Virus record (IMG/VR): IMGVR_UViG_3300046451_001765
Span: 1 to 34,892 of that record
From: a virus
Reading direction: 5' to 3' (one strand)
Length of the DNA stretch: 34,892 nt
The position numbers and the translations under genes are program-made. Under the pieces are notes generated by a model. It was given only the letters and a program-made list of their open reading frames with translations. It did not search any database and was not told the origin of the DNA. Below are positions 2,461 to 20,835 of the stretch, one piece after another (positions within the stretch are counted from its first letter, which is position 1; every line of letters begins with the position of its first letter).

Positions 2461-2853
2461 ATGAATCGCGTAATGATAGTCGGCAACCTGGGGCAGAAGC
2501 CTGAGGTACGCCAAGCAAAGAGTGGAACGTCTGTGTGTAGCTTCAGTGTTGCAACGACTGAATCTACAAAGAAGGGTGACCAGTGGGAAGAATACACTGA
2601 GTGGCATCGTGTTGTCGTGTTCGGCAGAGTCGCTGAAAACTGCGCCAAGTACCTCGACAAGGGTAAAAAGGTCGCCGTTGACGGTAAACTTCGAACGAGT
2701 TCATATGAGGACAAGCAGGGCAATCCTCGCAAGAGCACAGAGATCATTGCTGACAAGGTAGAGTTCCTGACTAAGGCAGACAAATCAGAGAGCACATCTC
2801 AGGATAGGCCTGCCTCGAGCAACGACTATGGCAACGATGGGATTCCGTTCTAA
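2461..2853 (+). CDS. ssb: single-stranded DNA-binding protein
   Basis: SSB coats single-stranded DNA during replication and recombination. The 130-residue protein begins MNRVMIVGNLGQKPEVR and has the classic OB-fold features: the EWHRVVVFGRVAENCAKYL segment near residues 47-65, and GKLRTSSYEDKQGNPR further on. It ends NDGIPF, a version of the acidic tail (consensus DDDIPF) that bacterial SSBs use to recruit partner proteins. The acidic part is weaker than usual, but the terminal IPF is kept. It follows an AGGGTGA ribosome site, and its stop codon overlaps the next start by one base (TAATG). Confidence 0.97.
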   Translation: MNRVMIVGNLGQKPEVRQAKSGTSVCSFSVATTESTKKGDQWEEYTEWHRVVVFGRVAENCAKYLDKGKKVAVDGKLRTSSYEDKQGNPRKSTEIIADKVEFLTKADKSESTSQDRPASSNDYGNDGIPF

Positions 2854-3833
2854 TGATTGACTACCACGACATCGAAGCAGTCAAAGAGAAAATCGGTGAT
2901 CGCAAGGTTGTCGTGTCAGTCAGTGGCGGAAAGGACTCCACAGCTACGTGTCTATATATGAAGGAGCTTGGTCTCGATTACGAGGCCATCTTCTTCGACA
3001 CGGGCTGGGAGCACGCCAGCACCTATGAATACTTGACTGACTACCTGCCCAGCAAGATCGGACCCATTGATCGACTGATACGCAAGCGGGACATGAGAAC
3101 GCCGGAATTGGAAGCATTGGCCCAAAAATACGAAACCCGGCTTGGGTGGTATTCGCCAATGGTCCGGTGGGTAATATTCAAAGGCATGTTTCCAACCCGT
3201 CAGCGGCGTTGGTGTACCTCAGAATTGAAGGTACACGCGGCACGGGACTACCTAAAAGGCATGGACCCGGAACCGATCAACGTGGTTGGAATACGCGCCG
3301 AGGAGAGCAAAGCACGCGCAAAAATGCCGGAATGGGAATGGTTCGACGCGGGGGACTGCGAGGTGTGGCGCCCGTTGATCCGGTGGACGTTCCAAGATGT
3401 GATCGACATACACCAACGGCACAATGTGAGCCCAAACCCAATGTATCTTGGTGACAATCCGGCGGAGCGGGTCGGCTGTTACCCTTGCATCTATGCCCGC
3501 AAATCAGAGATCAAACGGATAGCCCAAAAGTCACCGGACAGGATCGCATTGCTGGCCGACTTAGAAAAAGACATAAACGAAATACAGATCATACGCTCCG
3601 AAGCAAAGGGGGAAAAACTGCGAAACCCGCCGGCGTGGTTTCAATCACCCGGTAGCGAGATCAACCCGGCAACCGGCAAGCGTTCGGGGCTTTGCTGGCC
3701 GATCGATCGCGTGGTTCAATGGGCAAGGACCAAGCACGGCGGCCGACAGTTTGAGCTATTCGAGGCGCTACCAGGCGAACAAGGCTGTGTTCGTTGGGGA
3801 ATGTGCGACACACAGGGAGAGTCAAAAGAATGA
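2853..3833 (+). CDS. PAPS reductase/PP-loop family enzyme
   Basis: A PP-loop nucleotide enzyme of the phosphoadenosine phosphosulfate reductase superfamily (326 aa). Seen: the PP-loop SGGKDST (24-30), FFDTGWEH (47-54), WCTSELK (120-126), GIRAEES (146-152), and a late cysteine pair GCYPC (208-212). True PAPS reductases carry an ECGLH motif near the C-terminus, which I do not see, so sulfate assimilation is unlikely. The cysteine pair and domain layout are more like DndC-type or other nucleic-acid sulfur/thiolation enzymes. The gene follows ssb with a TAATG overlap and is followed by tRNA-Asn with no gap. From about base 3100 onward it uses CCG proline codons far more than its neighbours do, which hints at a different origin for the distal part. 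Confidence 0.8.
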   Translation: MIDYHDIEAVKEKIGDRKVVVSVSGGKDSTATCLYMKELGLDYEAIFFDTGWEHASTYEYLTDYLPSKIGPIDRLIRKRDMRTPELEALAQKYETRLGWYSPMVRWVIFKGMFPTRQRRWCTSELKVHAARDYLKGMDPEPINVVGIRAEESKARAKMPEWEWFDAGDCEVWRPLIRWTFQDVIDIHQRHNVSPNPMYLGDNPAERVGCYPCIYARKSEIKRIAQKSPDRIALLADLEKDINEIQIIRSEAKGEKLRNPPAWFQSPGSEINPATGKRSGLCWPIDRVVQWARTKHGGRQFELFEALPGEQGCVRWGMCDTQGESKE

Positions 3834-4863: not shown

Positions 4864-5122
4864 CGCTCTAACGACTATCGTGAGTAAGAAATCTTTCCGT
4901 GGTACGGTTCTTTCTTATGTGATTTCGGACCCAGGGAATGAGACAATCAATACGATCACCGATGATTTAAACAATGATGGTGATAGGGCGAAGGTTCACC
5001 GATCTGTTTTGTGTGCAGTGACAAACCTGTCCCAGAGAGGATTGATCACGTTCGGTGCAGGTACGAAAAAATCGAACCAACCACTGCATCCCATTGTAAA
5101 CGTTGCGGACTGTATGGTTTAG
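4850..5122 (+). CDS. hypothetical protein, possible winged-helix regulator
   Basis: A 90-residue protein I do not recognise. Residues 14-70 alternate helices with a possible turn and hairpin (RAKVHRSVLCAVTNLSQRGL followed by ITFGAG), which would suit a small winged-helix DNA-binding fold; this is a guess from pattern only. It has a good AAAGGAAAAGA ribosome site, overlaps the FmdB gene by 14 bases and is probably co-translated with it. Its stop codon overlaps that of the opposing gene (TTAG, 5119-5122). Confidence 0.55.
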   Translation: MKPNDALTTIVSKKSFRGTVLSYVISDPGNETINTITDDLNNDGDRAKVHRSVLCAVTNLSQRGLITFGAGTKKSNQPLHPIVNVADCMV

Positions 5123-5490
5123 CGCGCAGTGTATCCGAACTTAATCTGAACATCACTGGTTGGTGCCAGAGCATTGGCCCCACCACCAGCCGATGTTGTG
5201 CAGTAGCACTGTATTCCCGTACTAGTCAGATACCCAAGTGGAGCGTAGTAATACATCGTCGTGTTTGCTGGGCAGTACAACTGTGTGGTGTGCTGTGTCG
5301 ATGAACTAGACCCGCTGGCAGTGGGTATCATGTGGACATACACGGCTTCATTTGTATTCGGATTAGAAATCTCGACTGCGTATACAGTCTTATTTCCAGC
5401 CGCTATGATTTCGAGAGTAGTGTCAGCATCAATGTCCGTGACAATTGTAGTGACAAGTGGAGCTGATGCAGTGGATGTTGTGACGGCCAT
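5119..5490 (-). CDS. beta-rich paralogue B1 of a duplicated cassette
   Basis: A 123-residue protein rich in Thr, Ser, Ala and aromatic residues with no long helix, so probably an all-beta domain. It shares its plan with the proteins at 5498, 15625 and 16022: a central aliphatic/aromatic strand (TVYAVEISN here), an aromatic strand before a Pro/Gly turn, and a final PTSDVQIKF strand, matching PTSDVIVKL in the protein at 15625. The composition suggests a virion-surface or fibre-associated protein, but its location among replication genes is unusual. It is preceded by TGAGGTAACC, identical to the junction in the second cassette. Confidence 0.65.
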   Translation of the reverse strand: MAVTTSTASAPLVTTIVTDIDADTTLEIIAAGNKTVYAVEISNPNTNEAVYVHMIPTASGSSSSTQHTTQLYCPANTTMYYYAPLGYLTSTGIQCYCTTSAGGGANALAPTSDVQIKFGYTAR

Positions 5491-5500
5491 GGTTACCTCA
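5485..5500. repeat. 16-bp gene-junction repeat, copy 1
   Basis: GGCCATGGTTACCTCA is identical at 16009-16024. Read on the - strand it contains the stop codon of the first cassette gene, the GAGGT ribosome site, and the start codon plus second codon of the next gene. Conservation of this junction, while the flanking coding sequences have diverged widely, supports duplication of the whole two-gene unit or strong selection on coupling. Confidence 0.8.
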
Positions 5501-5860
5501 GGAGCAAAGGAAGGTCAGAAGAACGGTTCCAGGGTCACCTGTATCATCGTATGCCGCAGCATCGGTTACCCAAAAACTCAGCTGATCGAATGCAAGGCCA
5601 GCAGGAAGGTTGATCATTACTGCACCGGACGAAGGAATCTCGAACATAAGATCAGGCTGAGTCGTACCAACAGTAACTGTACCGGTGGTAATCTTTATCT
5701 TGAGATAGGCAATTGCAGCTGTCTGCTGATTGGCATCTATAGCCCAGAGGGTACCTGCTCCGCCCAGCACGTCTGCGCTCACCGCATCACTGGCATTGCT
5801 CTCGTGTACGATCTTGTATGCCAATGCTGAACTTGTAAATCCGGTGACTGTAAGAGCCAT
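5498..5860 (-). CDS. beta-rich paralogue A1 of a duplicated cassette
   Basis: A 120-residue protein, the first gene of the cassette. It resembles the protein at 16022-16393 in length and in ordered features: a Y-K-(I/V)-V-x-E start region (AYKIVHES here, DYKVVRET there), GTLWAI versus GSIYSI, a VTVGTT versus VTMGTT turn, an LPAGLAF versus IPDGLEF turn, an LSF strand and an (L/I)C(S/T) C-terminus. The fold is probably all-beta. A TTGGAGTA ribosome site precedes the ATG. The gene faces away from the HTH gene at 6001 across a 140-base control region. It may be a virion decoration or receptor-interaction protein, or a secreted or cell-surface protein; the sequence does not decide. Confidence 0.65.
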   Translation of the reverse strand: MALTVTGFTSSALAYKIVHESNASDAVSADVLGGAGTLWAIDANQQTAAIAYLKIKITTGTVTVGTTQPDLMFEIPSSGAVMINLPAGLAFDQLSFWVTDAAAYDDTGDPGTVLLTFLCS

Positions 5861-5887
5861 TTCTACTCCAAATAAATGTGCCTACAT

Positions 5888-5909
5888 ATGGTATCAAAGT
5901 CTATACCAT
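5888..5909. promoter_or_regulatory. inverted repeat in divergent control region
   Basis: ATGGTAT (5888-5894) and ATACCAT (5903-5909) are a perfect 7-bp inverted repeat with an 8-bp spacer. It lies in the 140-base gap between the beta-rich cassette (- strand) and the HTH gene (+ strand), close to where a promoter for the - strand pair would be. It may be an operator for one of the Cro-like proteins. Confidence 0.45.
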
Positions 5910-5916
5910 TCGACAC

Positions 5917-5944
5917 GACCACGCACTCGCTAAATGTAGTGGTC
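5917..5944. promoter_or_regulatory. second inverted repeat in divergent control region
   Basis: GACCAC (5917-5922) and GTGGTC (5939-5944) are a perfect 6-bp inverted repeat with a 16-bp gap, directly upstream of the -35 region of the + strand promoter. The half-sites differ from those of the repeat at 5888. Weak evidence for a regulator site. Confidence 0.3.
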
Positions 5945-5960
5945 TTCTTTGACAAGAAGA
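5943..5960. promoter_or_regulatory. hyphenated palindrome over the -35 box
   Basis: TCTTCTT-TGAC-AAGAAGA is a perfect 7-bp inverted repeat with a 4-bp centre, and the TTGACA -35 box (5949-5954) lies across that centre. A dimeric repressor binding here would block RNA polymerase directly. The HTH gene just downstream is the obvious candidate for autoregulation. Confidence 0.5.
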
Positions 5961-5977
5961 GTCGTGTTGACTAACGT
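5949..5977 (+). promoter_or_regulatory. sigma70-type promoter for the HTH/primase operon
   Basis: A perfect TTGACA -35 (5949-5954), a 17-bp spacer and TAACGT (5972-5977) as a weak -10. The transcript would begin near 5984 and carry the leader ACACCAACAGGAGAGAACA before the ATG at 6001, a leader shared with two other operon heads in this window. Confidence 0.55.
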
Positions 5978-6000
5978 AGCAACACCAACAGGAGAGAACA

Positions 6001-6267
6001 ATGACTACCAATGATGACTTCGTCATTAACACCAACCCAGCGCTTCAAGCTTTAGTCGATGAGGTTGCTGATACATATCGCGAGGCCGGGCGAGTATTCG
6101 GGGTATCGCACACGCACATTTGGCACGCACTAAATGGGACAAGGAACCCGATCTCGGTAAACTTGTTAGCGAAGTACGCAAGTCGTTGTCGCACCACCGT
6201 TGGAGTTTCCATGGAGCTCTGGATCAATCAAGAAGGGCTACTTAAGTATAAGATCGAGAGACACTAA
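6001..6267 (+). CDS. small Cro/XRE-like HTH DNA-binding protein
   Basis: An 88-residue protein with a helix-turn-helix of the XRE/Cro kind: TYREAGRVFGVSHTHIWHAL (about residues 25-44) supplies helices 2 and 3, with NLLAKYASR as a following helix. It has no catalytic or oligomerisation domain. It probably binds operators in the control region immediately upstream, where a palindrome covers its own -35 box. It leads the primase/VapE operon and has a strong AGGAGAG ribosome site. Whether it is a repressor or an antirepressor (Cro-like) cannot be told from sequence. Confidence 0.75.
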   Translation: MTTNDDFVINTNPALQALVDEVADTYREAGRVFGVSHTHIWHALNGTRNPISVNLLAKYASRCRTTVGVSMELWINQEGLLKYKIERH

Positions 6268-6339: not shown

Positions 6340-7344
6340 GTGTGGTTGCATATAGCAGAGAACGTAGCAGTATCAGAGATAGCGAACAGGCTTGGACTAC
6401 AGCCTCGCCGCAACAACTCCTTCGCACCATGCCCAAAGTGTGGTGAAGTCAATCGAGGGTCATCGGACAACCGTGGCCCGATCGGACTGAGGGGTGACGA
6501 CAAAGGTTGGAAGTGCCATAAATGTGGGGCCGGTGGGTCTGGCATTGACATGGTCACGTATCGAATATGTGGTAGTAAATTTTCAGAGGCAGACTCCTTC
6601 AACAAAACACGAGTAAGAACTTGGTTCGATGTGAAGATTGAAGAAGGTGCAGAGGTACTCTCAGCGCCGAAAAGGATTCGAGGGAAGCGACCTCCAGTCG
6701 GTGAGGTACACAGTCTCTGGAAAGCATCGCGCAACCTCAACCAGTTGAACAGCGAAGACCAAGCGCTTAAATTTTTAAAGGGAAGGAATCTAAACCTTTC
6801 CGCACTTTCTAAGTCTGGTGTCGTTCGAATCACGCCAGACCGAAAAGACTTTGACTGGCCAGGGTGGTGGCCTGCAGGACGCAGTTCATTGTGGCGAATT
6901 GTTGCGCCCGCATTCACTGAGGATGGGGAGTTCGTAAGCCTTCACAGTAGGGCTGTTGATGTTCCAAAGGCTGGGCCTAAGACGCTCTGGCCGAAAGGAT
7001 TTGAGGCAAAAGGGCTTTTCATGCCGAATAGATATGCCGTCAAGATGTTGCGAGGAGTAGATGTAGAGATCGATGGAGTTCTCTTTGTTGAGGGCATTAC
7101 CGACTTTATGAAGTGTTCTGCAGAGGTTGAAGACCAAAACTTAAAAATCGCAATTCTTGCAGGTACATCCGGGTCTTTTGGGTGTGTCTCAAAACTAAAG
7201 ATACCAAAAGATACAAAGATATATATTGGTACTGACCCGGATGAAGCAGGCAAGGAATACGCCAAGACGATTCAGTTGCAACTTGCCGATAGAATCTCTT
7301 ACAGAATCCCACTACACCAATTCGTAGGGGAAGATAATGCTTGA
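6340..7344 (+). CDS. DNA primase with zinc ribbon and TOPRIM domain
   Basis: Makes RNA primers for phage DNA replication. In 334 residues it has an N-terminal zinc ribbon (CPKC 31-34, CHKC 59-62) and a TOPRIM domain with the catalytic Glu in FVEGITDF (249-256) and the metal-binding DPDEAG (299-304). It is like the primase half of T7 gp4 but has no helicase domain; the ATPase is the separate next gene. Translation seems to start at GTG 6340 with a GGAG ribosome site ten bases upstream. It overlaps the VapE gene by 8 bases. Confidence 0.9.
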   Translation: MWLHIAENVAVSEIANRLGLQPRRNNSFAPCPKCGEVNRGSSDNRGPIGLRGDDKGWKCHKCGAGGSGIDMVTYRICGSKFSEADSFNKTRVRTWFDVKIEEGAEVLSAPKRIRGKRPPVGEVHSLWKASRNLNQLNSEDQALKFLKGRNLNLSALSKSGVVRITPDRKDFDWPGWWPAGRSSLWRIVAPAFTEDGEFVSLHSRAVDVPKAGPKTLWPKGFEAKGLFMPNRYAVKMLRGVDVEIDGVLFVEGITDFMKCSAEVEDQNLKIAILAGTSGSFGCVSKLKIPKDTKIYIGTDPDEAGKEYAKTIQLQLADRISYRIPLHQFVGEDNA

Positions 7345-8674
7345 TATTGATGCGATCATCACAGGCCAACCGGGCGCACCGAGGCTTTCTGACTTGTTGT
7401 CTATGGCTGAGAAGGGGCATGAAGATAGCGCCCAGTCAGGCATGGACTCTAAGGTTGTCAGCCACCTTGAGATGCAGACAAGCAAGGATGGGGTTCAAAA
7501 TATAAAGTCAACGGTTCCAAATATCCTGATCATCATGGAGAAAGACAAGCGTTGGAAGAAGAAGGTTTGGCTTAATGAGTTCAGTAATGCCATCTACCTT
7601 GATGAAAAACCGCTGAAAGACACAGACTACACGCGAATCAAGAGATGGATGTTCAAGCAATACGGTGTGCATTTTAGTACTGACATGATCGTTGAGGCGA
7701 CTAACTTCATTGCAGAACAAAACGGTAAGAACCCACTAACCAATTGGCTCAACAGTAATGTTTGGGATGGCGTCCCACGGATGGATGAGTGGCTTGTTCG
7801 CGGGTGCGGCGCTGAAGACAACAAGCTTAACCGAGAGATTGGTCGCCGATGGCTCATACAATGTGTCGCCAGAGCGATGGAACCAGGCTGTAAGGCCGAT
7901 TGTGTTCTCATACTTGTCGGGCCACAAGGGGCGCGAAAAAGTACAACATTCCGCATCCTCGGCTCTCCTGAGTACTTCTGCGATACACCGATGGATATCG
8001 GTTCAAGCAACGCCTACATGCAGATTCATCGCGCATGGATCTACGAGGTAGCAGAGCTCGACTCTATTCGCAGGGCAAGAAACTCCAGCACTAAGGCGTT
8101 CTTGTCTGCTCAAGAGGACACCTTCCGACTCCCATACGCACGCCAGACAGTGACGCTGAAGAGGCACACAGTGTTCTGTGGAACCACCAACAAGGCCGAG
8201 TTCATCACCGATGAGACTGGGTCTCGACGCTACTGGCCAATACAAGTTGGTAAGATGGATACGGACTGGACCGAACACAACCGTAGTCAGTTGTGGGCAG
8301 AGTCTGCGGTTGCTTACAAAAATGGTGAGAAGTGGTTCTTAGAGGATCAGGCCCAAAATGTTCTTGACGAGCAGTCCTCCGATTTCCGTCAGTTTGACCC
8401 GTGGCATGAAATCGTGGAGCGATACATCAGAGCAAATGGCCTGAACATGTCTACTACTGATTTGATGGAGCAAGGTTTAAAACTCGAGAAGTACCAGATG
8501 ACTCGTGCATCAGAGATGCGCGTTGGCGACATCATGAGACAGCTGGGATTTGATCGAGTTCGAAAACGAGTATTTGGTGATCGGAAATATGTTTGGGTCG
8601 AAGCCAACAAAGACAATGTGATTGAAATTCAAAAGCCAGTAGCGGTAGACAATGAAGACAATGGGAGTTTTTAA
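7337..8674 (+). CDS. VapE-family P-loop ATPase (replicative helicase candidate)
   Basis: A 445-residue protein of the virulence-associated E (VapE)/DUF5906-like AAA-type group, which pairs with primases in phages and mobile elements and probably acts as the replicative helicase. Seen: the family lead-in WDGVPRMDEWL (143-153), Walker A GPQGARKST (195-203), Walker B region WIYEVAEL (234-241), sensor-like CGTTN (281-285) and an arginine-finger-like TGSRRYWPI (294-302). The ATG at 7337 follows GGGGAA and overlaps the primase end, so the two are coupled. The N-terminal 100 residues are not recognised. Confidence 0.88.
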   Translation: MLDIDAIITGQPGAPRLSDLLSMAEKGHEDSAQSGMDSKVVSHLEMQTSKDGVQNIKSTVPNILIIMEKDKRWKKKVWLNEFSNAIYLDEKPLKDTDYTRIKRWMFKQYGVHFSTDMIVEATNFIAEQNGKNPLTNWLNSNVWDGVPRMDEWLVRGCGAEDNKLNREIGRRWLIQCVARAMEPGCKADCVLILVGPQGARKSTTFRILGSPEYFCDTPMDIGSSNAYMQIHRAWIYEVAELDSIRRARNSSTKAFLSAQEDTFRLPYARQTVTLKRHTVFCGTTNKAEFITDETGSRRYWPIQVGKMDTDWTEHNRSQLWAESAVAYKNGEKWFLEDQAQNVLDEQSSDFRQFDPWHEIVERYIRANGLNMSTTDLMEQGLKLEKYQMTRASEMRVGDIMRQLGFDRVRKRVFGDRKYVWVEANKDNVIEIQKPVAVDNEDNGSF

Positions 8675-8675
8675 A

Positions 8676-9257
8676 ATGAAGTCAGCAGAACAAAAAGAGA
8701 TGATGATATTTATCGATCGATACCTGACCGAAGAGGACAAGGACCGTATCTGCTCCAACAGTCCTGCAGGCAAGGTAAGGACATTTCCAGGCAGTGAAAT
8801 GTTCTACATGTATTCAGAGTCGAATCGTGTGAAGTCATTCATTGAAAATGGTCACTACTCCAGCGTTATTGGGTTCGGCATTGACTATCTTATAAATAGG
8901 TCATTTTCTTCAAATTGGATTGACCTTGCAACTTCAGATGATGCCGAAGCTCACGCTAGGAATATGCTTCTGGATTACATAGATGACGGTCATGTGTTTG
9001 ATGAGTCACAGGTCGACAAAATCTATGCATGGTTGAAGATGACACCGTATTCTGCCATGTCGATCACAACTCCGATTCGAGACAAAGTATGCGAAACCGT
9101 AGATTTACTGTGGTCAAGTTGCGTAATGAAGGGAAGAGAGTTTGCCACCCTCAGTCATGAAGTCGCAAACACAATGATGGGTGACATCATAAATCATTGG
9201 TCAGAAACAGTTATCATTCCACATAAGGGTGTCGGTACACGAAATCTTCTGGAGTAG
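8676..9257 (+). CDS. hypothetical protein
   Basis: A 193-residue soluble protein of mixed helix/strand composition that I do not recognise. The start at 8676 is preferred over one at 8652 (inside the VapE gene) because a GGGAG ribosome site lies eight bases before it. It begins one base after the VapE stop. The position suggests an accessory role in replication. No metal-binding or nucleotide-binding motif is visible. Confidence 0.65.
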   Translation: MKSAEQKEMMIFIDRYLTEEDKDRICSNSPAGKVRTFPGSEMFYMYSESNRVKSFIENGHYSSVIGFGIDYLINRSFSSNWIDLATSDDAEAHARNMLLDYIDDGHVFDESQVDKIYAWLKMTPYSAMSITTPIRDKVCETVDLLWSSCVMKGREFATLSHEVANTMMGDIINHWSETVIIPHKGVGTRNLLE

Positions 9258-9261
9258 GATC

Positions 9262-9486
9262 ATGCCAAACATAAATGTGATTTGTGACCAATGGAACAAG
9301 CCAATGCACTGGGTGGTCACCGAAGACGATGAGTCTGCTGAAATATCAGATGAGGATGGAGACTTCGTCGTCAGTTCGATCACTCAAACAAATCTTACCG
9401 AATTAATCGAAGCACATCTCCAAAAGATACGATTGGCGGTCGCAATGAATTTGCTGATGACATCGCCTAAAAACAACGAAAGCTAA
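9262..9486 (+). CDS. small acidic hypothetical protein
   Basis: A 74-residue acidic protein (MPNINVICDQWNKP at the start; an ED/SD-rich middle). A GGAGTAGGATC ribosome site spans the stop codon of the upstream gene, which favours the ATG at 9262 over one at 9229. It is the last gene of the primase operon; its stop codon overlaps that of the opposing Lys/Ala-tailed gene (CTAA, 9483-9486). Not recognised; small acidic phage proteins are sometimes inhibitors of host DNA-binding proteins, but nothing here shows that. Confidence 0.55.
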   Translation: MPNINVICDQWNKPMHWVVTEDDESAEISDEDGDFVVSSITQTNLTELIEAHLQKIRLAVAMNLLMTSPKNNES

Positions 9487-9713
9487 GCTTTCTTTTTCCA
9501 GACTTTCTTTGCCGGTGCTTTCTTTGCCGGTGCTTTCTTTGCTGGGGCCTTACTTGGGGCCAACTTCTCTACCGGTGCTGCAAGCTTTGACTCGAGCTCA
9601 GCGATGTATGAATAGAGTACAGCTATGACACCCGGCAACTGATACCCATGATGACACGCCTTGGCAGATGTCATGACAACTCTCATGGCCTGTACCTGAT
9701 CTTTCAAACTCAT
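9483..9713 (-). CDS. small protein with Lys/Ala/Pro repeat tail
   Basis: A 76-residue protein. The first 45 residues are probably helical (SLKDQVQAMRVVMTSAKACH, then IAVLYSYIAELESKL); the tail is three APAKK repeats ending KVWKKKA, like the nucleic-acid-binding tails of histone H1-like bacterial proteins. It may bind DNA, perhaps with the HTH protein encoded directly upstream. The ATG at 9713 is preferred over a GTG at 9725 because the GGAG ribosome site overlaps the latter. Confidence 0.6.
   Translation of the reverse strand: MSLKDQVQAMRVVMTSAKACHHGYQLPGVIAVLYSYIAELESKLAAPVEKLAPSKAPAKKAPAKKAPAKKVWKKKA
9503..9547. repeat. three 15-bp tandem repeats encoding the Lys/Ala tail
   Basis: CTTTCTTTGCCGGTG occurs at 9503-9517 and exactly again at 9518-9532; a third copy at 9533-9547 differs at two positions. 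They encode the PAKKA units in the opposing gene. Near identity at DNA level suggests recent expansion by slippage, so copy number may vary between relatives. Confidence 0.85.
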
Positions 9714-9725
9714 TTGTGGCTCCAC

Positions 9726-9965
9726 TTATAATCGTAAACGTGGGGATAGACCCGGCCATTCCCTGACCGATACTATACCACTAGTTGCTCTCTCAATGCC
9801 AATCGCCAACGGTAGTGATGGTGTCTTACGACCATACTCAAGGTCTCTCAGGTACCCGATACTGATTTTCATCTCAAAACGAACGAGCTCTCCATTCAAC
9901 CAAGTGACAAAAGCAACACGAGTGCTTCGGCCTGGTAAGCTTTTACGATATTCAGTGACAACCAT
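9726..9965 (-). CDS. Cro/CI-like HTH repressor
   Basis: A 79-residue protein with a lambda-repressor-like helix-turn-helix signature: the ISIGYLRDLEYGRKTPSLPL segment followed by AIGIERATSGIVSV, the usual pattern of recognition helix, GR-x-x-P loop and helix 5 in small Cro-type proteins. It has no C-terminal cleavage domain, so it is not a SOS-cleavable CI. It is transcribed divergently from the exonuclease/RecT operon and probably controls it. ATG 9965 has AAGG eight bases upstream; the GTG at 9974 overlaps that ribosome site. Confidence 0.7.
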   Translation of the reverse strand: MVVTEYRKSLPGRSTRVAFVTWLNGELVRFEMKISIGYLRDLEYGRKTPSLPLAIGIERATSGIVSVREWPGLSPRLRL

Positions 9966-9985
9966 TAGACACACCTTTGATTTGG

Positions 9986-10014
9986 ATACTATCTAAACCG
10001 ATGCCTTTTGTCCA
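9986..10014 (-). promoter_or_regulatory. promoter for the HTH repressor gene
   Basis: On the - strand: TGGACA (10009-10014), a 17-bp spacer, then TAGTAT (9986-9991), a good sigma70-type fit. The start of transcription would be near 9979, so the leader to the ATG at 9965 is very short. Confidence 0.5.
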
Positions 10015-10021
10015 TCTTAGG

Positions 10022-10040
10022 GTGTGGCTCCTTGACACAC
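10022..10040. promoter_or_regulatory. inverted repeat overlapping the -35 box
   Basis: GTGTG (10022-10026) and CACAC (10036-10040) form a 5-bp inverted repeat that covers the TTGACA -35 box at 10032-10037. It lies between the divergent repressor and recombination promoters, a natural operator position. Short, so moderate evidence only. Confidence 0.35.
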
Positions 10041-10060
10041 TTCAGGCTAAGGAGTAGTCT
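10032..10060 (+). promoter_or_regulatory. sigma70-type promoter for the recombination operon
   Basis: A perfect TTGACA -35 (10032-10037), a 17-bp spacer and TAGTCT (10055-10060) as -10. It is followed by the leader CACCAACAAGAGAGGAACG, closely like the leaders at 33-49 and 5981-6000. Spacing and leader match the promoter at 5949, so both are probably read at the same stage of infection. Confidence 0.55.
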
Positions 10061-10079
10061 CACCAACAAGAGAGGAACG

Positions 10080-11033
10080 ATGAACCAACAAGAACGACAA
10101 GCTTGGCTTACCGAGCGTAAAAAAGGCTTAGGTGGAACAGACATCGCCTGCATTATGATGGCGTGCGCTGACGAGTCCGAGAAGATTGGTTCATTTGAAA
10201 ACAGTACTTTCAAATTGTGGTCGGAAAAAACGGGGCTGTTCAATACAGACGACCATGACGATTCAGTCTTGATGCGTGGTCGAGTAATGGAAAAATATGT
10301 CTGTGAGTTTTATGAACTCCACCTAGGGGAAGGGTGTAAACTTTGGGAAGAGGGACTGACATGGAATCCAACTCGACCACGTATCTTTGGTACGCCTGAT
10401 CGGCTTGTAGAGCACAATGGAGTCAGATTCGGAATGGATGCTAAAACCCGCCGCTATCGACGCGGGTGGGGCGACTCTGGAACAACTGATGTTCCACTAG
10501 ATGTAGAGATTCAGATGCGTGTCTACATGGAGATTTTTGATGCTCCATACTGGGACATAGCTACGCTCTTCAGCCTCGATGACTTCCGGGTGTATCGACT
10601 CGAGCGAGACAAAGAACTTGGAGGGTCTATTCTCGACGCAGCAGAGGAGTGGTGGGAAAAGTATGTCGAGAGTGAGGTACCTCCAAGCGTAGACTCCACC
10701 AGCGCATGCACGAAGGTTCTCAGTCAGTTGAACCCAAGGGTAAAAGACGAGCCGCTAAGAACCGCAACCGTCGCCGAGAAAGATCTCTATGAGAAAATTC
10801 TACACGTTAAGGAAGAGCTCAAGTTGAACGATAACAAGAAGCGGGAACTTGAGAACATTTTACGAGCAAAGATAGGAGACTCCCCTGGTATAGAAGGAGT
10901 TGCTACATGGAAGCTTGGGAAGCCTCGAAAAGTGTTCGACAAGAACTCTTTCAGGGAAGCAGAGCCAGAGATGTACCATAAGTTTTTGATTGAACAACCA
11001 GGCATAAGAACACTTCGAGTAAAGGTAAAATAG
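10080..11033 (+). CDS. YqaJ-type phage recombination exonuclease
   Basis: A PD-(D/E)XK nuclease of the YqaJ/lambda-exonuclease type (317 aa), which resects double-stranded ends to give single strands for the RecT-type partner encoded next. Seen: WLTERKKGLGGTDI (N-terminal family motif), IFGTPDRLV (catalytic Asp region), GMDAKTRR (the D/E-x-K element) and VPLDVEIQMRVYME (the family's QVQ-like helix). The ATG at 10080 is favoured by GAGAGGAAC just upstream; the open frame continues to 10008 but crosses the promoter. Confidence 0.88.
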   Translation: MNQQERQAWLTERKKGLGGTDIACIMMACADESEKIGSFENSTFKLWSEKTGLFNTDDHDDSVLMRGRVMEKYVCEFYELHLGEGCKLWEEGLTWNPTRPRIFGTPDRLVEHNGVRFGMDAKTRRYRRGWGDSGTTDVPLDVEIQMRVYMEIFDAPYWDIATLFSLDDFRVYRLERDKELGGSILDAAEEWWEKYVESEVPPSVDSTSACTKVLSQLNPRVKDEPLRTATVAEKDLYEKILHVKEELKLNDNKKRELENILRAKIGDSPGIEGVATWKLGKPRKVFDKNSFREAEPEMYHKFLIEQPGIRTLRVKVK

Positions 11034-15374: not shown

Positions 15375-15628
15375 CGTCGTTTTCGTGCATTACCAAGATC
15401 AGCAAGATCGTCAGCAGGAGAATCGCCATCAGTAGCAGTTTTGATTCGATCTAGTTCTTCTTTTAGGCTTTCTTGAACATCATCAAGTGCGACATCAGAA
15501 ACTGTATTTTCTGGAGGGGTCTCGATCTCTTTTTTTTCCTTAGACAGTTTCCGTTTTCCTAAAACGAGTGCAAGAATCCCAAAAACGATAGACATAATGA
15601 CGGCAATGGCTTTCTTTACTTTAGTCAC
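15371..15628 (-). CDS. small membrane protein with acidic coiled-coil tail
   Basis: An 85-residue protein with one N-terminal membrane segment (AIAVIMSIVFGILALVLG), a basic stretch just after it (KRKLSKEKKE, indicating a cytoplasmic C-terminus by the positive-inside rule), and a charged tail with helix potential ending NARKRR. It overlaps both neighbours by four bases. A possible holin or antiholin; not recognised. Confidence 0.55.
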   Translation of the reverse strand: MTKVKKAIAVIMSIVFGILALVLGKRKLSKEKKEIETPPENTVSDVALDDVQESLKEELDRIKTATDGDSPADDLADLGNARKRR

Positions 15629-16014
15629 GAGCAGATCAACTTCACAATTACATCTGAAGTTGGATCTGTTTCATTTCCAACTTCAGTTCCAGTCACGCAC
15701 CACATTGACAGGCCTGCAGTAAACGCAGCTCCACCTGGTATGGCATACGTGATCTTAGTGTACTCTGGCGCTTTGAACGAAAAGTGCGGAGTTCCTACAC
15801 CGTTTGCCGTAGTTGTGGCCGGGGTAGCAGCAGTATTATCTCTGATCTTCAAGTAAGAAGGTGTTGAGTTCGCTTCGTTGTTGATTTGAACCATGTAAAT
15901 GATGCCAGCTGCACCAGTCACGTTTGGAGTAGCACCATTCGCCCCAGTACAGTCACGCTCAAGTACGTACTTACCACCGAGCTCAGTGATTGAAGATGTT
16001 GACGTAGCGGCCAT
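15625..16014 (-). CDS. beta-rich paralogue B2 of a duplicated cassette
   Basis: A 129-residue protein, the second gene of the copy of the cassette in the structural arm. It has the plan described for the protein at 5119: IIYMVQINN strand, aromatic strand before AIPGGAAF turn, LSMWC strand, and the ending PTSDVIVKLICS. The ending LICS and the IPGGAAF turn also recall the A genes, so all four probably share one fold and ancestor. It is preceded by TGAGGTAACC, identical to that before the protein at 5119. Its location, next to fibre genes, supports a virion role. Confidence 0.65.
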   Translation of the reverse strand: MAATSTSSITELGGKYVLERDCTGANGATPNVTGAAGIIYMVQINNEANSTPSYLKIRDNTAATPATTTANGVGTPHFSFKAPEYTKITYAIPGGAAFTAGLSMWCVTGTEVGNETDPTSDVIVKLICS

Positions 16015-16024
16015 GGTTACCTCA
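16009..16024. repeat. 16-bp gene-junction repeat, copy 2
   Basis: Identical to 5485-5500 and in the same role: stop codon of gene A, ribosome site and start codon of gene B of the cassette, read on the - strand. The gap between the stop and the next ATG is seven bases in both loci. Confidence 0.8.
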
Positions 16025-16393
16025 AGTGCAAATGATTTTCACATCTACGGTAGCACCACTGGCTGCGGTGAGCGCAGTGTTGTCAAATGGGTTCTGGTTG
16101 ACCGTACAAGCAAAGCTAAGGTACGTGAACTCCAAACCGTCTGGAATGTTGTACACAGTAGTAGTGGCGGCGGCTACTCGAAGCACCATGTCGGCAATTG
16201 TAGTGCCCATAGTGACGGCTTCTGCATCAAAGAACTTGAAGTGTGCCGCTGCCGCCGTCGCATTCGTCAATGAGATTGAGTAAATCGACCCTGGATTTGA
16301 AGTAGCGTTGACGATGGCCGTGTTGTTGCACACAGTTTCACGGACCACCTTGTAGTCAAACGCATCTTCAAACTTGGTAGTCGATGTAGCCAT
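16022..16393 (-). CDS. beta-rich paralogue A2 of a duplicated cassette
   Basis: A 123-residue protein, the counterpart of that at 5498: DYKVVRET near residue 13, GSIYSISL, AVTMGTTIADMVL, NIPDGLEFTYLSF and a VKIICT C-terminus. Probably all-beta. Its ATG follows the stop of the upstream gene with no gap, and the ribosome site is weak (AAGCGAA). A minor virion protein is the simplest guess from its neighbours. Confidence 0.65.
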   Translation of the reverse strand: MATSTTKFEDAFDYKVVRETVCNNTAIVNATSNPGSIYSISLTNATAAAAHFKFFDAEAVTMGTTIADMVLRVAAATTTVYNIPDGLEFTYLSFACTVNQNPFDNTALTAASGATVDVKIICT

Positions 16394-16708
16394 CTATTCG
16401 CTTTCTGCCGCTAGCCTTTGTTTTTCAATATCTGCTTTGATCTCGGCGTCACGTTTATCTTGAGCCGCCTTGCGAGACTTGTCAGCCTGTTGAGCTTCTT
16501 TCGGGAAGGTTTCTTGAATCTTCATTGGGTCAGGAACTGGTGCTGGTGTTTGTTCCGGTTGACCGGTATCACCAGCCATGATGCTCATCATTGAGCCTTT
16601 AGAAACCAAAATGGCCTTCTGAGCTGCCGTCATGGTTATGCCCTTAGCCTTGAGTTTCTCTTCAATAATTGCGAGCTTCTCTTGTTGTTCGTCCGTCAAA
16701 CCTGCCAT
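16394..16708 (-). CDS. hypothetical charged helical protein
   Basis: A 104-residue protein, not recognised. An N-terminal helix (TDEQQEKLAIIEEKLKAKGI) is followed by a proline-rich linker (GQPEQTPAPVPDPMK) and a charged C-terminal helix (KSRKAAQDKRDAEIKADIEK). A clear AGGAA ribosome site precedes the ATG. It may be a virion accessory or chaperone protein. Confidence 0.6.
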   Translation of the reverse strand: MAGLTDEQQEKLAIIEEKLKAKGITMTAAQKAILVSKGSMMSIMAGDTGQPEQTPAPVPDPMKIQETFPKEAQQADKSRKAAQDKRDAEIKADIEKQRLAAESE

Positions 16709-16717
16709 GATAAATTC

Positions 16718-16909
16718 CTATTTCTTCGAGATTGCAGCCATTGCTTTCTCAGCACTGTCACCAGCGATGTAAGCAAGGCCAAGGTAAAGCCACTGAGCGG
16801 ACTCTAGGCGGCCTGCAACGAGCAGAGCAGTACCAAGAGCCAGAACAGCAAGACGACGCCAAGAGACGCGCTTCTGAGAGCAGAAAAGTGCAGTGAGTAA
16901 ATCTTTCAT
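16718..16909 (-). CDS. small membrane protein, possible holin
   Basis: A 63-residue protein: basic N-terminus (CSQKRVSWRR), a hydrophobic segment (LAVLALGTALLVAG) and a second weaker one (WLYLGLAYIAG) ending in a charged SAEKAMAAISKK. The size and two-helix hairpin suit a small holin, and it lies in the same operon as the lysis genes. An AAGGAAG ribosome site precedes the ATG. Confidence 0.6.
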   Translation of the reverse strand: MKDLLTALFCSQKRVSWRRLAVLALGTALLVAGRLESAQWLYLGLAYIAGDSAEKAMAAISKK

Positions 16910-16918
16910 GATTCTTCC

Positions 16919-18169
16919 TTATAGGGGTAGTAATACATCGGCCGCAATACCCTCGACCGTTCGCTGCTGACTAACAATTCCAGTCACGATTAGCGACCAT
17001 GATTCGCCGCCATCGAGAGACCTGCATATGTCACCACCGTCGGCGCCCGTGTTGTCGCCATCCGAACCAGCTAGCCATATGGTCCCATCGGTGGCGATTG
17101 TATTTAGGCTGCCCGCGTCGGGTAGGGTTTGGGTTGTGCCTTCGATGACTGGTGTAGCCTTACCGTTGACCGTGGCAGCCAGCGAACGCGCCGCATCAAC
17201 TGCCACCACTCGACCACCCGCTCCCGCCATTCGCCTTAGCGCGGTGCCCGTAAGTTTTGCCGCAGCCGCTGGGTTAGAATCACTTGGGTCATCCTGCATC
17301 TTCGTATTGCCCCAATCACCTGCGGCGTCCATGTTTGCTGCTGTGCTTCCGGCACAAACATACAGATAGGTCACACCACCCACATTCACTAGAACGCACC
17401 ATGTTCCGTTGGTGTACACAATATCGCGGATCACGTTAGTGCCCGCGCCTGTGGGCTGAATCAGGTATGAGAAACTGACACCTGAATCTGAGCTAAAATA
17501 CAGGTTTCCACGTTGAGCCAGCATCCAATTCCCTGTGCCGTCTCCAGCGAGCGCACGGATATGATAGTCAGCGTCCGAAGCGTTTCCTGCGATATTGGTT
17601 AGCCCAAATAGGTTAAGGTGCGTCCAGTTGGCGCCGCCATCCACAGATCGGTGTATCCAAGCAGCGTTCGTTGATGTCCGGCCACAAGCGATCCAACACC
17701 CGACTCGCGTGACAGAATTCCCCGAGGATGAGTCTGCACTGCCGTCACCACCTGTGTACTGGATTGTCTCTAACCTGTTGTTCCCGTAGTCTGTACTGAC
17801 ATTATGCGTGCTCCACGTTGACTCATCGGTAATATCGTTGTTACCGTCAAATTTAATCTCGTCGCCGTTGGTGTTGTTTACCGTCATCCACTTCGCGCCA
17901 CCGTTGCCATCAAGACCATAGGCTATGTCGTTCGTGTCAGAACTGTTGTTCTCAAGCTGGTACGCGTTTCCTTCCCACTCGAGCACATCTGCGATATTAG
18001 CGGTAGCGGCCCACGAGATCCACATATCTCTAGACGATATTGCCCACATGGTAGCGCCTGCGGCTGCAGGCACCCCGACACTGTTAATACTGGCAATGTT
18101 AGCCTTGGGTACGTTATTTACCTTAGCCAAATTACCGTGCGTGGCGTTGTCGCATTTAGCGTAGGCCAT
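16919..18169 (-). CDS. BNR/Asp-box beta-propeller virion protein
   Basis: A 416-residue protein with at least three Asp-box (S-x-D-x-G-x-x-W/F) repeats: RSVDGGANW near residue 173, SSDSGVSF near 226 and RSLDGGESW near 385. Such repeats fold into the beta-propeller of sialidase-like proteins; in phages they occur in tail spikes and fibre-linked receptor-binding proteins. It sits directly after the long fibre gene with a TGATG overlap and a GAGGT ribosome site, so it is probably a tail-tip or host-recognition protein. Sialidase catalytic residues are not apparent. Confidence 0.7.
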   Translation of the reverse strand: MAYAKCDNATHGNLAKVNNVPKANIASINSVGVPAAAGATMWAISSRDMWISWAATANIADVLEWEGNAYQLENNSSDTNDIAYGLDGNGGAKWMTVNNTNGDEIKFDGNNDITDESTWSTHNVSTDYGNNRLETIQYTGGDGSADSSSGNSVTRVGCWIACGRTSTNAAWIHRSVDGGANWTHLNLFGLTNIAGNASDADYHIRALAGDGTGNWMLAQRGNLYFSSDSGVSFSYLIQPTGAGTNVIRDIVYTNGTWCVLVNVGGVTYLYVCAGSTAANMDAAGDWGNTKMQDDPSDSNPAAAAKLTGTALRRMAGAGGRVVAVDAARSLAATVNGKATPVIEGTTQTLPDAGSLNTIATDGTIWLAGSDGDNTGADGGDICRSLDGGESWSLIVTGIVSQQRTVEGIAADVLLPL

Positions 18170-20835
18170 CAGGCGACCTCAACCAGTGTCAGTGACGGGT
18201 TGAAGTAAACAACATCGGCACTAATGGCGACCCCTAAAGCCTGAACGAATGCACCGCTAGTTGTGGGCGCCGTCTGTGTCATGGCTCCCGCAGTTTCAGA
18301 TGCGTACATGATTCCGCCGATCGTCCAGGTCCAGGTATCATCACGGATGAACCCTTGAAGCATGATTGGCCCCGTCGCAGTATCCGAAATCGCGACCGGA
18401 GCGATACCGATCACAGGCATGGTGGCGATAGCATTCGAATCTGTAATGACCACTTCGCCTGTGGTGGTGTGGGCGCATACAGTCTGGAACGCTGCGATTG
18501 CTCCACCGGCCAGCATTAGAGCAATGATGCCCGACGAGGCGTGGTCGTTTGTCGGTAGTAATGGGGCTATAATCTCAAGCGAGGACGCTTCTTCAAGGGC
18601 CACACCACTCGTGACCGATAGTAGGCCAGCAACCGTGGTCACCGATGCGGCACCGTTAGCGATGAACACATCAATCTCGTCTTCGGCATTACCATCTTGC
18701 AGGGTAAGCCCCGGCTGAAGCTCGCCATCGTGAGACGCCACGCTAATGCTGATGCTGCCGCCTTCCGATCCGGCAGTCATGTCGGAAATAGTGCTTTCGA
18801 TGGTCGCGTAGGTCTGAACAACCGGGTCGGGGCTGGTATCATCCTCACTTACAAACTTGATCGTGCCGACAACATCGTTGTCCGCAACGCTCGCGCCGTC
18901 CTTGACAAATTGAAGCGTTCCGCCGAGCGCGTCGGGGTTTGTACATTCGAGCGACATCAATGGTCTGGCCGAGGTTCCACTGAACATCTGCATGATTGGG
19001 CTGTTAACAATGATTTTGGTCGAGGCATTAAGGTCGATAGTGGGGGCAACCGCGTCCAAAATTGCGCCCGCGTTGACCACCAGAGTACCGCCGGCGTCAG
19101 CCGAAATGTTCTCACCGCCATTTGCGTCGTTAAAGGAAAGCTTAGTGTCGCCGGCAAGAATCATCTCATCTGCAGACACATCAACCGTAACCGAGTGGTT
19201 GGCTGTGGTGACAACAAGGTCCGCCGTAAACGTTTTCTCGCCCGATAGCGTCTGATTAGTCGTCAAGTGTGCCGTATCAGCGTCGAGGTAGGCAGAGGCG
19301 ATCGCGGTTCCTTGCCACGTTCCGGCGGCGACCGTGCCGACCGTCGTGATGCTGGAGCTACCGGCCAGGGCAGACTTGGTGTCCGCGTATGCCTTGATTG
19401 ACTGCTGAGTGGCAAGTGCGGTGGCACTATCGCTCCCCATTGCATCCTCGTCGAGGATATTCGTGACGGTGGCACCGCCGGTTCCCTTGAACGAGTTCAG
19501 GGTCTTGGTGCCGGTAAACGTTTGGGTACCGGACAGATGAGCAGTGTCCGCGTCAAGGTAGGCGCTCGCGACGGCGGTTCCTTGCCAGGTGCCTGTGCCG
19601 ATGGTTCCGACGGTCGTAAGGTTCGAGAGAGTATCAATCGCAGCTTCGATTGTTGCTTCGGTTGTAGCATCCAGCGCATCGATGTTCGATAGCGTCATTG
19701 TGCCGCTACTGTCGGACAGGATTGCTGTGCTGCCTACCTTGTAGGCCTTACTCGCTGCGATACTCATATCGCTTGTAGCAGTGATCGCTCCGGTCACATC
19801 GAGAGGCTTGTTCATTACAAACTTAGTGCCGGTGTGGGCGTAAGTAATCGTAGCGTCTGCACCATCAATAGAGATTCCAGCGCCGTTAGCAGCATTGGAA
19901 TCCGCAGCGCCGGAAGCGACTTCAATAAGTAGGTCGTCTACGGTAAGCGTCGTGGAGTTGATCGTGGTCGTTGTACCATTAACAGTCAAGTCGCCAGTCA
20001 CAGTCAGGTTGTCGTTGACTGTAGTCTCTGACGTTGTGTGGCCAATGCTTACTGCAGTACCGCTGGTTGTTCCAAGCGTGATGCTGGCCACACCAGAGCC
20101 GCTGTTTACTGCATCAATGGTCAACGCCTTGGCGCTGCTGCTGTTTGCAGTCATGGTCAGGTTGGTTGAGTCGGTTCCATCAAGAGATAGAGTAGTTCCG
20201 TCAACTGTTACAACTGCACCATTGATATCTACCGCGCCAGATGTAGTCAGTTCGAGGGTGCCTGACCCAGCATTGATGTCCATGCCAACGGAGTCGATGC
20301 TCGCAACGCCTGTTACATCGACATCGAGGATACCCGCATCGATCTGCACTTCAGATGCAGCGTTTGCGTTTGCGTCAATGTGAAACGCAACACCCGCCGT
20401 GTGGGCCGATGTCAGGGTGATGTGACCATCAACAGATGTAGTCGTGATGGAAATCTCATCAGCGGCACCAACGGTGATGTTGTCGGCTGAATCGATGTCG
20501 ATACTGCCAGCGGTTGTGTCGATGTTAATCGCATCGGCACCCGTACCAGTTGAGCTGATCACAACACTGGAGTCTGTGGCACCAGTAACTGCGATTGTAA
20601 GATCCTCGCCCGCTCCATCGGAAGCAACGGTGAAGTTTGCGGCAACACCTACGGAGTCGATTGAAACACCTGCACCATCAACACTGAAAGTACCGTCCAC
20701 ATCAAGCGTGTGGGTTGGTGTCGCAGTACCAATACCTACACGGTCATTGGTCTCATCGACGACGATTGTAGTGCCATCTACCTCGAGGTCAGTAAGAACA
20801 AGACTACCGCCTCCACGATTGTAAAAGTCACCCAT
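18169..20835 (-). CDS. long repetitive tail fibre protein
   Basis: An 888-residue, Ser/Thr/Asp/Ala-rich, beta-helix-like protein typical of phage fibres. It starts with a short N-terminal region and the fibre phrase VGIGTATPTHTLDVDGT (33-49). The middle is a long run of short strand repeats (TTAGSIDIDSADNITVG and many like it). Two copies of a GTWQGTA...ASAYLDADTAHL module are at about 405-433 and 495-523. The C-terminal 200 residues are less repetitive and likely form the receptor-facing end. No cleavable chaperone domain is recognised. It may trimerise. A GGAG ribosome site precedes the ATG. Confidence 0.8.
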   Translation of the reverse strand: MGDFYNRGGGSLVLTDLEVDGTTIVVDETNDRVGIGTATPTHTLDVDGTFSVDGAGVSIDSVGVAANFTVASDGAGEDLTIAVTGATDSSVVISSTGTGADAINIDTTAGSIDIDSADNITVGAADEISITTTSVDGHITLTSAHTAGVAFHIDANANAASEVQIDAGILDVDVTGVASIDSVGMDINAGSGTLELTTSGAVDINGAVVTVDGTTLSLDGTDSTNLTMTANSSSAKALTIDAVNSGSGVASITLGTTSGTAVSIGHTTSETTVNDNLTVTGDLTVNGTTTTINSTTLTVDDLLIEVASGAADSNAANGAGISIDGADATITYAHTGTKFVMNKPLDVTGAITATSDMSIAASKAYKVGSTAILSDSSGTMTLSNIDALDATTEATIEAAIDTLSNLTTVGTIGTGTWQGTAVASAYLDADTAHLSGTQTFTGTKTLNSFKGTGGATVTNILDEDAMGSDSATALATQQSIKAYADTKSALAGSSSITTVGTVAAGTWQGTAIASAYLDADTAHLTTNQTLSGEKTFTADLVVTTANHSVTVDVSADEMILAGDTKLSFNDANGGENISADAGGTLVVNAGAILDAVAPTIDLNASTKIIVNSPIMQMFSGTSARPLMSLECTNPDALGGTLQFVKDGASVADNDVVGTIKFVSEDDTSPDPVVQTYATIESTISDMTAGSEGGSISISVASHDGELQPGLTLQDGNAEDEIDVFIANGAASVTTVAGLLSVTSGVALEEASSLEIIAPLLPTNDHASSGIIALMLAGGAIAAFQTVCAHTTTGEVVITDSNAIATMPVIGIAPVAISDTATGPIMLQGFIRDDTWTWTIGGIMYASETAGAMTQTAPTTSGAFVQALGVAISADVVYFNPSLTLVEVA
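19267..19350. repeat. 84-bp imperfect repeat in fibre gene, copy 1
   Basis: This encodes the distal copy of the GTWQGTA / ASAYLDADTAHL module. It matches the copy at 19537-19620 in frame and length, with scattered, largely silent differences, so it is an older in-frame duplication. Confidence 0.75.
19537..19620. repeat. 84-bp imperfect repeat in fibre gene, copy 2
   Basis: Exactly 270 bp from the other copy. Both are followed in the protein by a similar (S/T)xxQTxxGxKT stretch, so the repeat unit may be longer than the conserved core. Confidence 0.75.

Follow-up and report, generated by a model that had tools for sequence, protein, structure and literature searches.

A paired family of small, predicted jelly-roll-like proteins with a probable virion-surface role in an uncultivated tailed-phage lineage

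Why should a tailed phage carry two similar pairs of small genes, one amid its replication genes and the other next to its tail-fibre genes? The question is raised by a 34,892-bp virus record from an uncultivated tailed-phage lineage, which was analyzed over its whole length and is referred to below as the window. A sequence-only reading had described a two-gene, beta-rich cassette at two distant loci and had proposed a family of interchangeable surface or virion proteins expressed at two stages, or a novel secreted or decoration system. The open reading frames confirm two minus-strand pairs, A (5119-5860) and B (15625-16393), equal in gene order, size and 7-bp gap (Table 1).

Table 1 Features of the two gene pairs and of the region upstream of pair A (window coordinates)
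Feature	Position (nt)	Strand	Description and basis
A2, second gene of pair A	5119-5490	minus	123-aa ORF, most divergent paralogue
A1-A2 junction	5491-5497	minus	7-bp gap; TGA stop overlaps GAGG ribosome site
A1, first gene of pair A	5498-5860	minus	120-aa ORF
Divergent intergenic region with conserved blocks	5861-6000		between A1 and HTH-like gene; alignment of 13 relatives
Promoter-like block AATGGTATAGACTTTGATACCATAT, extended -10 type	5886-5910	minus	upstream of A1; alignment of relatives
TTGACA-17-TAACGT, candidate promoter of divergent replication operon	5949-5977	plus	sequence and alignment
B2, second gene of pair B	15625-16014	minus	129-aa ORF
B1-B2 junction	16015-16021	minus	7-bp gap and 16-bp motif as in pair A
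B1, first gene of pair B	16022-16393	minus	123-aa ORF

The settings ascribed to the two pairs are borne out as well. Plus-strand replication genes lie to either side of pair A: a primase/helicase operon precedes or follows it at one end, and genes for a helicase and for nucleotide metabolism adjoin the opposite end. The pair forms an antisense island in the early region and is on the late strand. Pair B is part of a minus-strand operon of the fibre region, between tail-fibre-like genes, which it directly follows, and an endolysin-like gene, just upstream of the lysis genes. The base composition of both pairs is that of the window. All four proteins begin with MAxT... and, read by eye, show no hydrophobic leader; the suggestion that they are secreted is thus unsupported. 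Two other parts of the window deserve a remark. A PAPS-reductase-like gene (phrog_424, 2853-3833) lies beside pair A, and in two relatives (G011 and G013) it is replaced by genes resembling, by eye, QueC-type and MT-A70-type enzymes (L072, 1304-3483); the locus is thus variable and possibly concerned with DNA modification. A 2310-aa protein encoded at 22024-28956 is kept in relatives (about 30-45% identity) and has no Pfam or PHROG match.

Sequence comparisons indicate that A1, A2, B1 and B2 are all homologous and share one common ancestor. BLAST aligns A1 with B1 (29% identity, E 9e-14), A1 with B2 (24%, E 3e-9) and B1 with B2 (28%, E 9e-6). In direct BLAST comparison of A2 with B2 the similarity is below significance; an A2 orthologue from a relative (L021) matches B2 at E 8e-8, and a profile of the A2 family matches that of the A1/B1/B2 family with 97.3% probability (E 2.4e-11). 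Chance or low-complexity resemblance is ruled out by the E value of 9e-14, the full-length similarity and the same predicted fold. The conserved turns that had been noted, V-T-x-G-T-T and P-x-G-x-x-F, are present in A1, B1 and partly B2 but absent from A2, and the shared protein ending (LCS/ICT/ICS) likewise holds for A1, B1 and B2 but not for A2.

By the same kind of evidence A2 appears to be a divergent relative with B2 as its best counterpart: once A2 itself is set aside, the A2 profile matches B2 best in nearly all of the nine genomes examined, the scores listed for B2 and for A1 or B2 being close in G018 and G001. In the tree A1 and B1 are sisters (support 98/95); a sister relation of B1 and B2 is rejected (p 0.023), and one of A2 and B2 is not (p 0.31). 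When the third (C) pair described below is added, the first-position genes form one clade (100/98), the second-position genes group with 61/41 support only, and the test matching the B1+B2 one gives p 0.063. The sisterhood of A1 and B1, the closeness of A2 to B2 and the rejection of a B1+B2 clade fit the duplication of a two-gene unit; a separate tandem duplication at each locus was discarded on that rejection, at the two p values given. The four proteins each form their own long-separated orthologue group, which does not agree with their being interchangeable.

The junction between the genes of a pair was also claimed to be identical at the two loci, and TGAGGTAACCATGGCC is indeed found exactly twice in the window, at both pair junctions. 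It joins the TGA stop of the first gene with the GAGG ribosome site of the second, followed by the ATG-GC start, and its absence from any other site of the window speaks against a common ribosome-site motif. Relatives mostly retain only TGAGG...ATG, and even in a single genome the junction of pair A is unlike that of pair B. As the junctions drift in this way, the exact 16-bp identity is mostly a matter of function and chance and carries little weight; a recent gene conversion at the junction is unsupported, given that the junctions of A and B differ in relatives.

The pairing itself is stable within the lineage. A1 lies directly upstream of A2 in 27 of 28 A2-family loci, and both pairs are present, 9-12 kb apart and on the same strand, in 13 of 13 related records long enough to reach both loci, the expected second locus falling off the contig elsewhere. 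A search for further copies in related phages yielded a third pair, carried by two lineages (G011, G013 and G015) in the fibre/lysis region, and a tandem pair in a phage of another lineage (L109). One relative, G002 (contig of L015), is 70,768 bp long and encodes a major head protein, a terminase and, judging by gene position, a portal-like protein. Its ends, 1 and 70768, fall between two genes that lie next to each other in G001 (16352-16981 and 16992-17609), and because the two ends are neighbours there, G002 appears to be an almost complete genome, circularly permuted and about 70.7 kb in length.

Between G002 and its relative G003, identity is 97-100% for the flanking replication genes, against 88% for A1 and 80% for A2; it is 94% for B1 and 92% for B2, and 52% and 65% for two fibre-region genes (40707 and 41852). 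Judged from these sequences, the divergence of pair A is far more rapid than that of the replication genes around it and resembles that of an adsorption or surface protein. For all four genes dN/dS is 0.06-0.26, which indicates purifying selection.

Upstream of A1 the intergenic region shared with the divergent genes contains a conserved block, AATGGTATAGACTTTGATACCATAT, whose sequence suggests that it would serve as a promoter. The block was sought elsewhere in the window and in G001 and none was found. No other late promoter convincingly carries it, and it therefore does not show shared late control. On the plus strand, TTGACA-17-TAACGT likely serves the divergent replication operon as its promoter; 13 relatives retain the -35 part of this sequence, and a consensus promoter scan did not report it. 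A palindrome in the same region (5910-5919/5961-5970) was taken as chance, its arms falling where the relatives' alignment varies. The gene at 6001-6267, divergent from pair A, encodes a small HTH-like protein (under the Pfam cut-off) whose counterparts in relatives are about 60-73% identical to it; this protein may regulate the intergenic region that the two share. The proposal that the two pairs are expressed at two stages is plausible only, in that a conserved promoter-like block of its own precedes pair A, and pair B forms part of a late-strand operon.

No protein library names this family: Pfam, PHROG and NCBIfam searches gave no match of note, a PDB sequence search with both subfamily profiles gave none at E up to 1, and a near-identity DNA search of a phage collection gave none. 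With the patterns used, no relative was found in bacterial and archaeal species genomes, and no paper naming the family was found in the literature search. The sole relative in the annotated phage collection is Rctr197k_171 of Virus Rctr197k (KX853510), 33-40% identical, a hypothetical protein encoded on the strand opposite to its neighbours and present as a single copy in a 197-kb record, in contrast to the four paralogues of the window. The name Rctr197k does not occur in the paper on the Methylomirabilis enrichment phages, which contains no proteomics (PMC5099504).

Relatives are nevertheless spread over podovirus-like, T4-like and jumbo phage contigs. Outside the window's lineage the family is single-copy, the exception being L109, whose own tandem pair has the same 7-bp gap and lies upstream of lysis genes. 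In 24 contigs, near-duplicates included and hence not 24 independent cases, a T4-gp23-like major head protein is in reach, and the family gene is the very next gene behind it in 19 and within about 1.1 kb in the other 5. The capsid-linked genes are on the same strand as the head gene and ahead of neck and sheath genes where those were seen; the gp23-like protein was identified as the PHROG major head protein in two of the contigs (E about 1e-73). In L102/L103, of podovirus-type lineage, the capsid protein is 31% identical to that of G002 (E 1e-33); behind it come first a 152-aa gene, next the family gene and then homologues of the next G002 genes. Two exceptions are a family gene among replication genes (L089) and one about 162 kb from the capsid gene on a 267-kb contig (L099). 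The latter gene lies inside an array (6416-10180) of eight reading frames that start with nearly the same peptide, MKITKRQLRRIIKEE, which may be a targeting tag common to their N-termini.

In the window's own lineage the gene behind the capsid gene is not a member of pair A or B; it encodes another, unnamed protein of 160-169 aa (G001 19781-20290; G002 about 67400-67900, minus strand), in the same slot as the 152-aa gene of L102. The two proteins show a faint likeness in a two-sequence comparison (E 0.014), and the 160-169-aa protein is perhaps the main cement protein of this lineage.

Structure prediction gave an all-beta model of eight strands for A1 (pLDDT 94.8) and an all-beta eight-strand sandwich of closely similar strand order for A2 (pLDDT 89.6). 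The predicted fold of both is a jelly-roll-like eight-strand beta sandwich, and by their sequence relationship B1 and B2 should share it. These two models, the ones that were made, agree in strand order, so that different folds, which would have spoken against one family, were not found, and both retrieve one and the same set of viral proteins without a name, at TM values of about 0.75-0.9. When solved structures are ranked, the trimeric cement protein of Helicobacter phage KHP40 comes first for A2 (Z 8.0, rmsd 3.8, 101 aligned residues) and twelfth for A1 (Z 6.6, rmsd 3.1, 96 aligned). In the structure comparison nucleoplasmins, Bacillus endospore fibres and cupins score like the cement protein; since Z 6.6-8.0 is the range of common arrangements and unrelated jelly-rolls equal it, fold alone decides nothing.

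Accessory head proteins of the decoration type are small and, in most cases, trimeric (PMC7602432). The four proteins are small, single-domain and beta-rich, as such proteins are. A position in the head gene cluster, common but not obligatory for decoration proteins, is found for the single-copy relatives and not for the four genes of the window's lineage. We favour, with modest confidence, the explanation that A1, A2, B1 and B2 are accessory decoration-type proteins on the outside of the virion, B belonging to the late fibre/lysis operon and A to an island in the early region; most likely they work like decoration proteins, without being proven members of that class. An ancestral single gene of the capsid-adjacent kind would have become a tandem pair in the podovirus-type lineage with its genome of about 70 kb, and the two-gene unit would then have been copied whole. 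Pair B would be made with the late fibre/lysis operon and pair A behind its own conserved promoter-like element, evolving like an adsorption or surface protein, and the single-domain jelly-roll-like proteins would assemble on the particle exterior. Virion location, binding to the head rather than the tail, oligomerisation, promoter activity and timing are what we infer here. Of the earlier idea of a duplicated cassette of virion surface proteins, the core is upheld by homology, a common predicted fold, the capsid linkage of single-copy relatives and fast divergence; interchangeability and secretion are not.

The exterior might also be that of the tail. The proteins could be small receptor-binding or fibre-attached beta-sandwich subunits, pairs A and B being two sets of an adsorption module, and the place of pair B directly after tail-fibre-like genes, that of the third pair in the same fibre region of G011, G013 and G015, and the divergence of pair A ahead of its neighbours, towards that of exterior proteins, all suit this. 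We consider it somewhat unlikely, as the single-copy relatives belong to head operons, where neck and sheath genes come after them, and are not found with tail fibres. It is also unlikely, though conceivable, that two or three separately controlled paired sets, early and late, make coats or host-cell surfaces differ by stage or condition, each pair forming a hetero-oligomer.

Proteins acting in the cell rather than in the virion, such as a lysis or membrane-acting beta-sandwich, form a further alternative. XepA and YomS of Bacillus prophages are pentameric beta-sandwich proteins of lytic cassettes (PMC6834076) with a jelly-roll-like sandwich in common with the fold predicted here, pentameric folds of the nucleoplasmin type equal cement proteins in score, and both pair B and the independent pair of L109 immediately precede lysis genes. 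Most single-copy relatives and pair A, however, are remote from any lysis genes, the solved structures have no sequence match, and XepA and YomS are not among the fold matches listed; a lysis role is accordingly quite improbable. That pair A is an early surface or host-interaction set (e.g. for second-phage exclusion) co-opted from virion proteins, with pair B structural, is very unlikely: its promoter-like block, conserved, its own and absent elsewhere in the window and G001, and its place beside replication genes are countered by its position on the late strand and by the lack of an evident leader peptide or membrane segment.

For the decoration-type reading that we prefer, the nearest known systems differ in instructive ways. 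The trimeric cement protein of KHP30/KHP40 (PDB 7dn2, 7dou) is likewise a small single-domain beta protein, and the relatives of our family lie beside the capsid gene; the fold match is weak (A2 Z 8.0 to 7dou and 7.0 to 7dn2; A1 Z 6.6 to 7dou), no sequence relation to the four proteins is detectable, and here, unlike in those phages, four paralogues form two distant two-gene units, and the capsid gene has none of the four next to it. In T4 the accessory head proteins are Soc, a beta-tadpole, and Hoc, an Ig-like chain (PMC7602432), which differ from the jelly-roll-like single domain predicted here; the genomic position of the relatives suggests that they have a comparable role on T4-like heads. 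In the literature search, decoration-type genes organized as paired units at two to three loci, one of them amid early genes and preceded by a conserved control region of its own, were not found described.

The analysis ties an unnamed protein family to a probable role at the virion surface. If confirmed, it would give a name to a family that is missing from Pfam, PHROGs and NCBIfam, and would raise the question why one phage keeps several sets of coat proteins.
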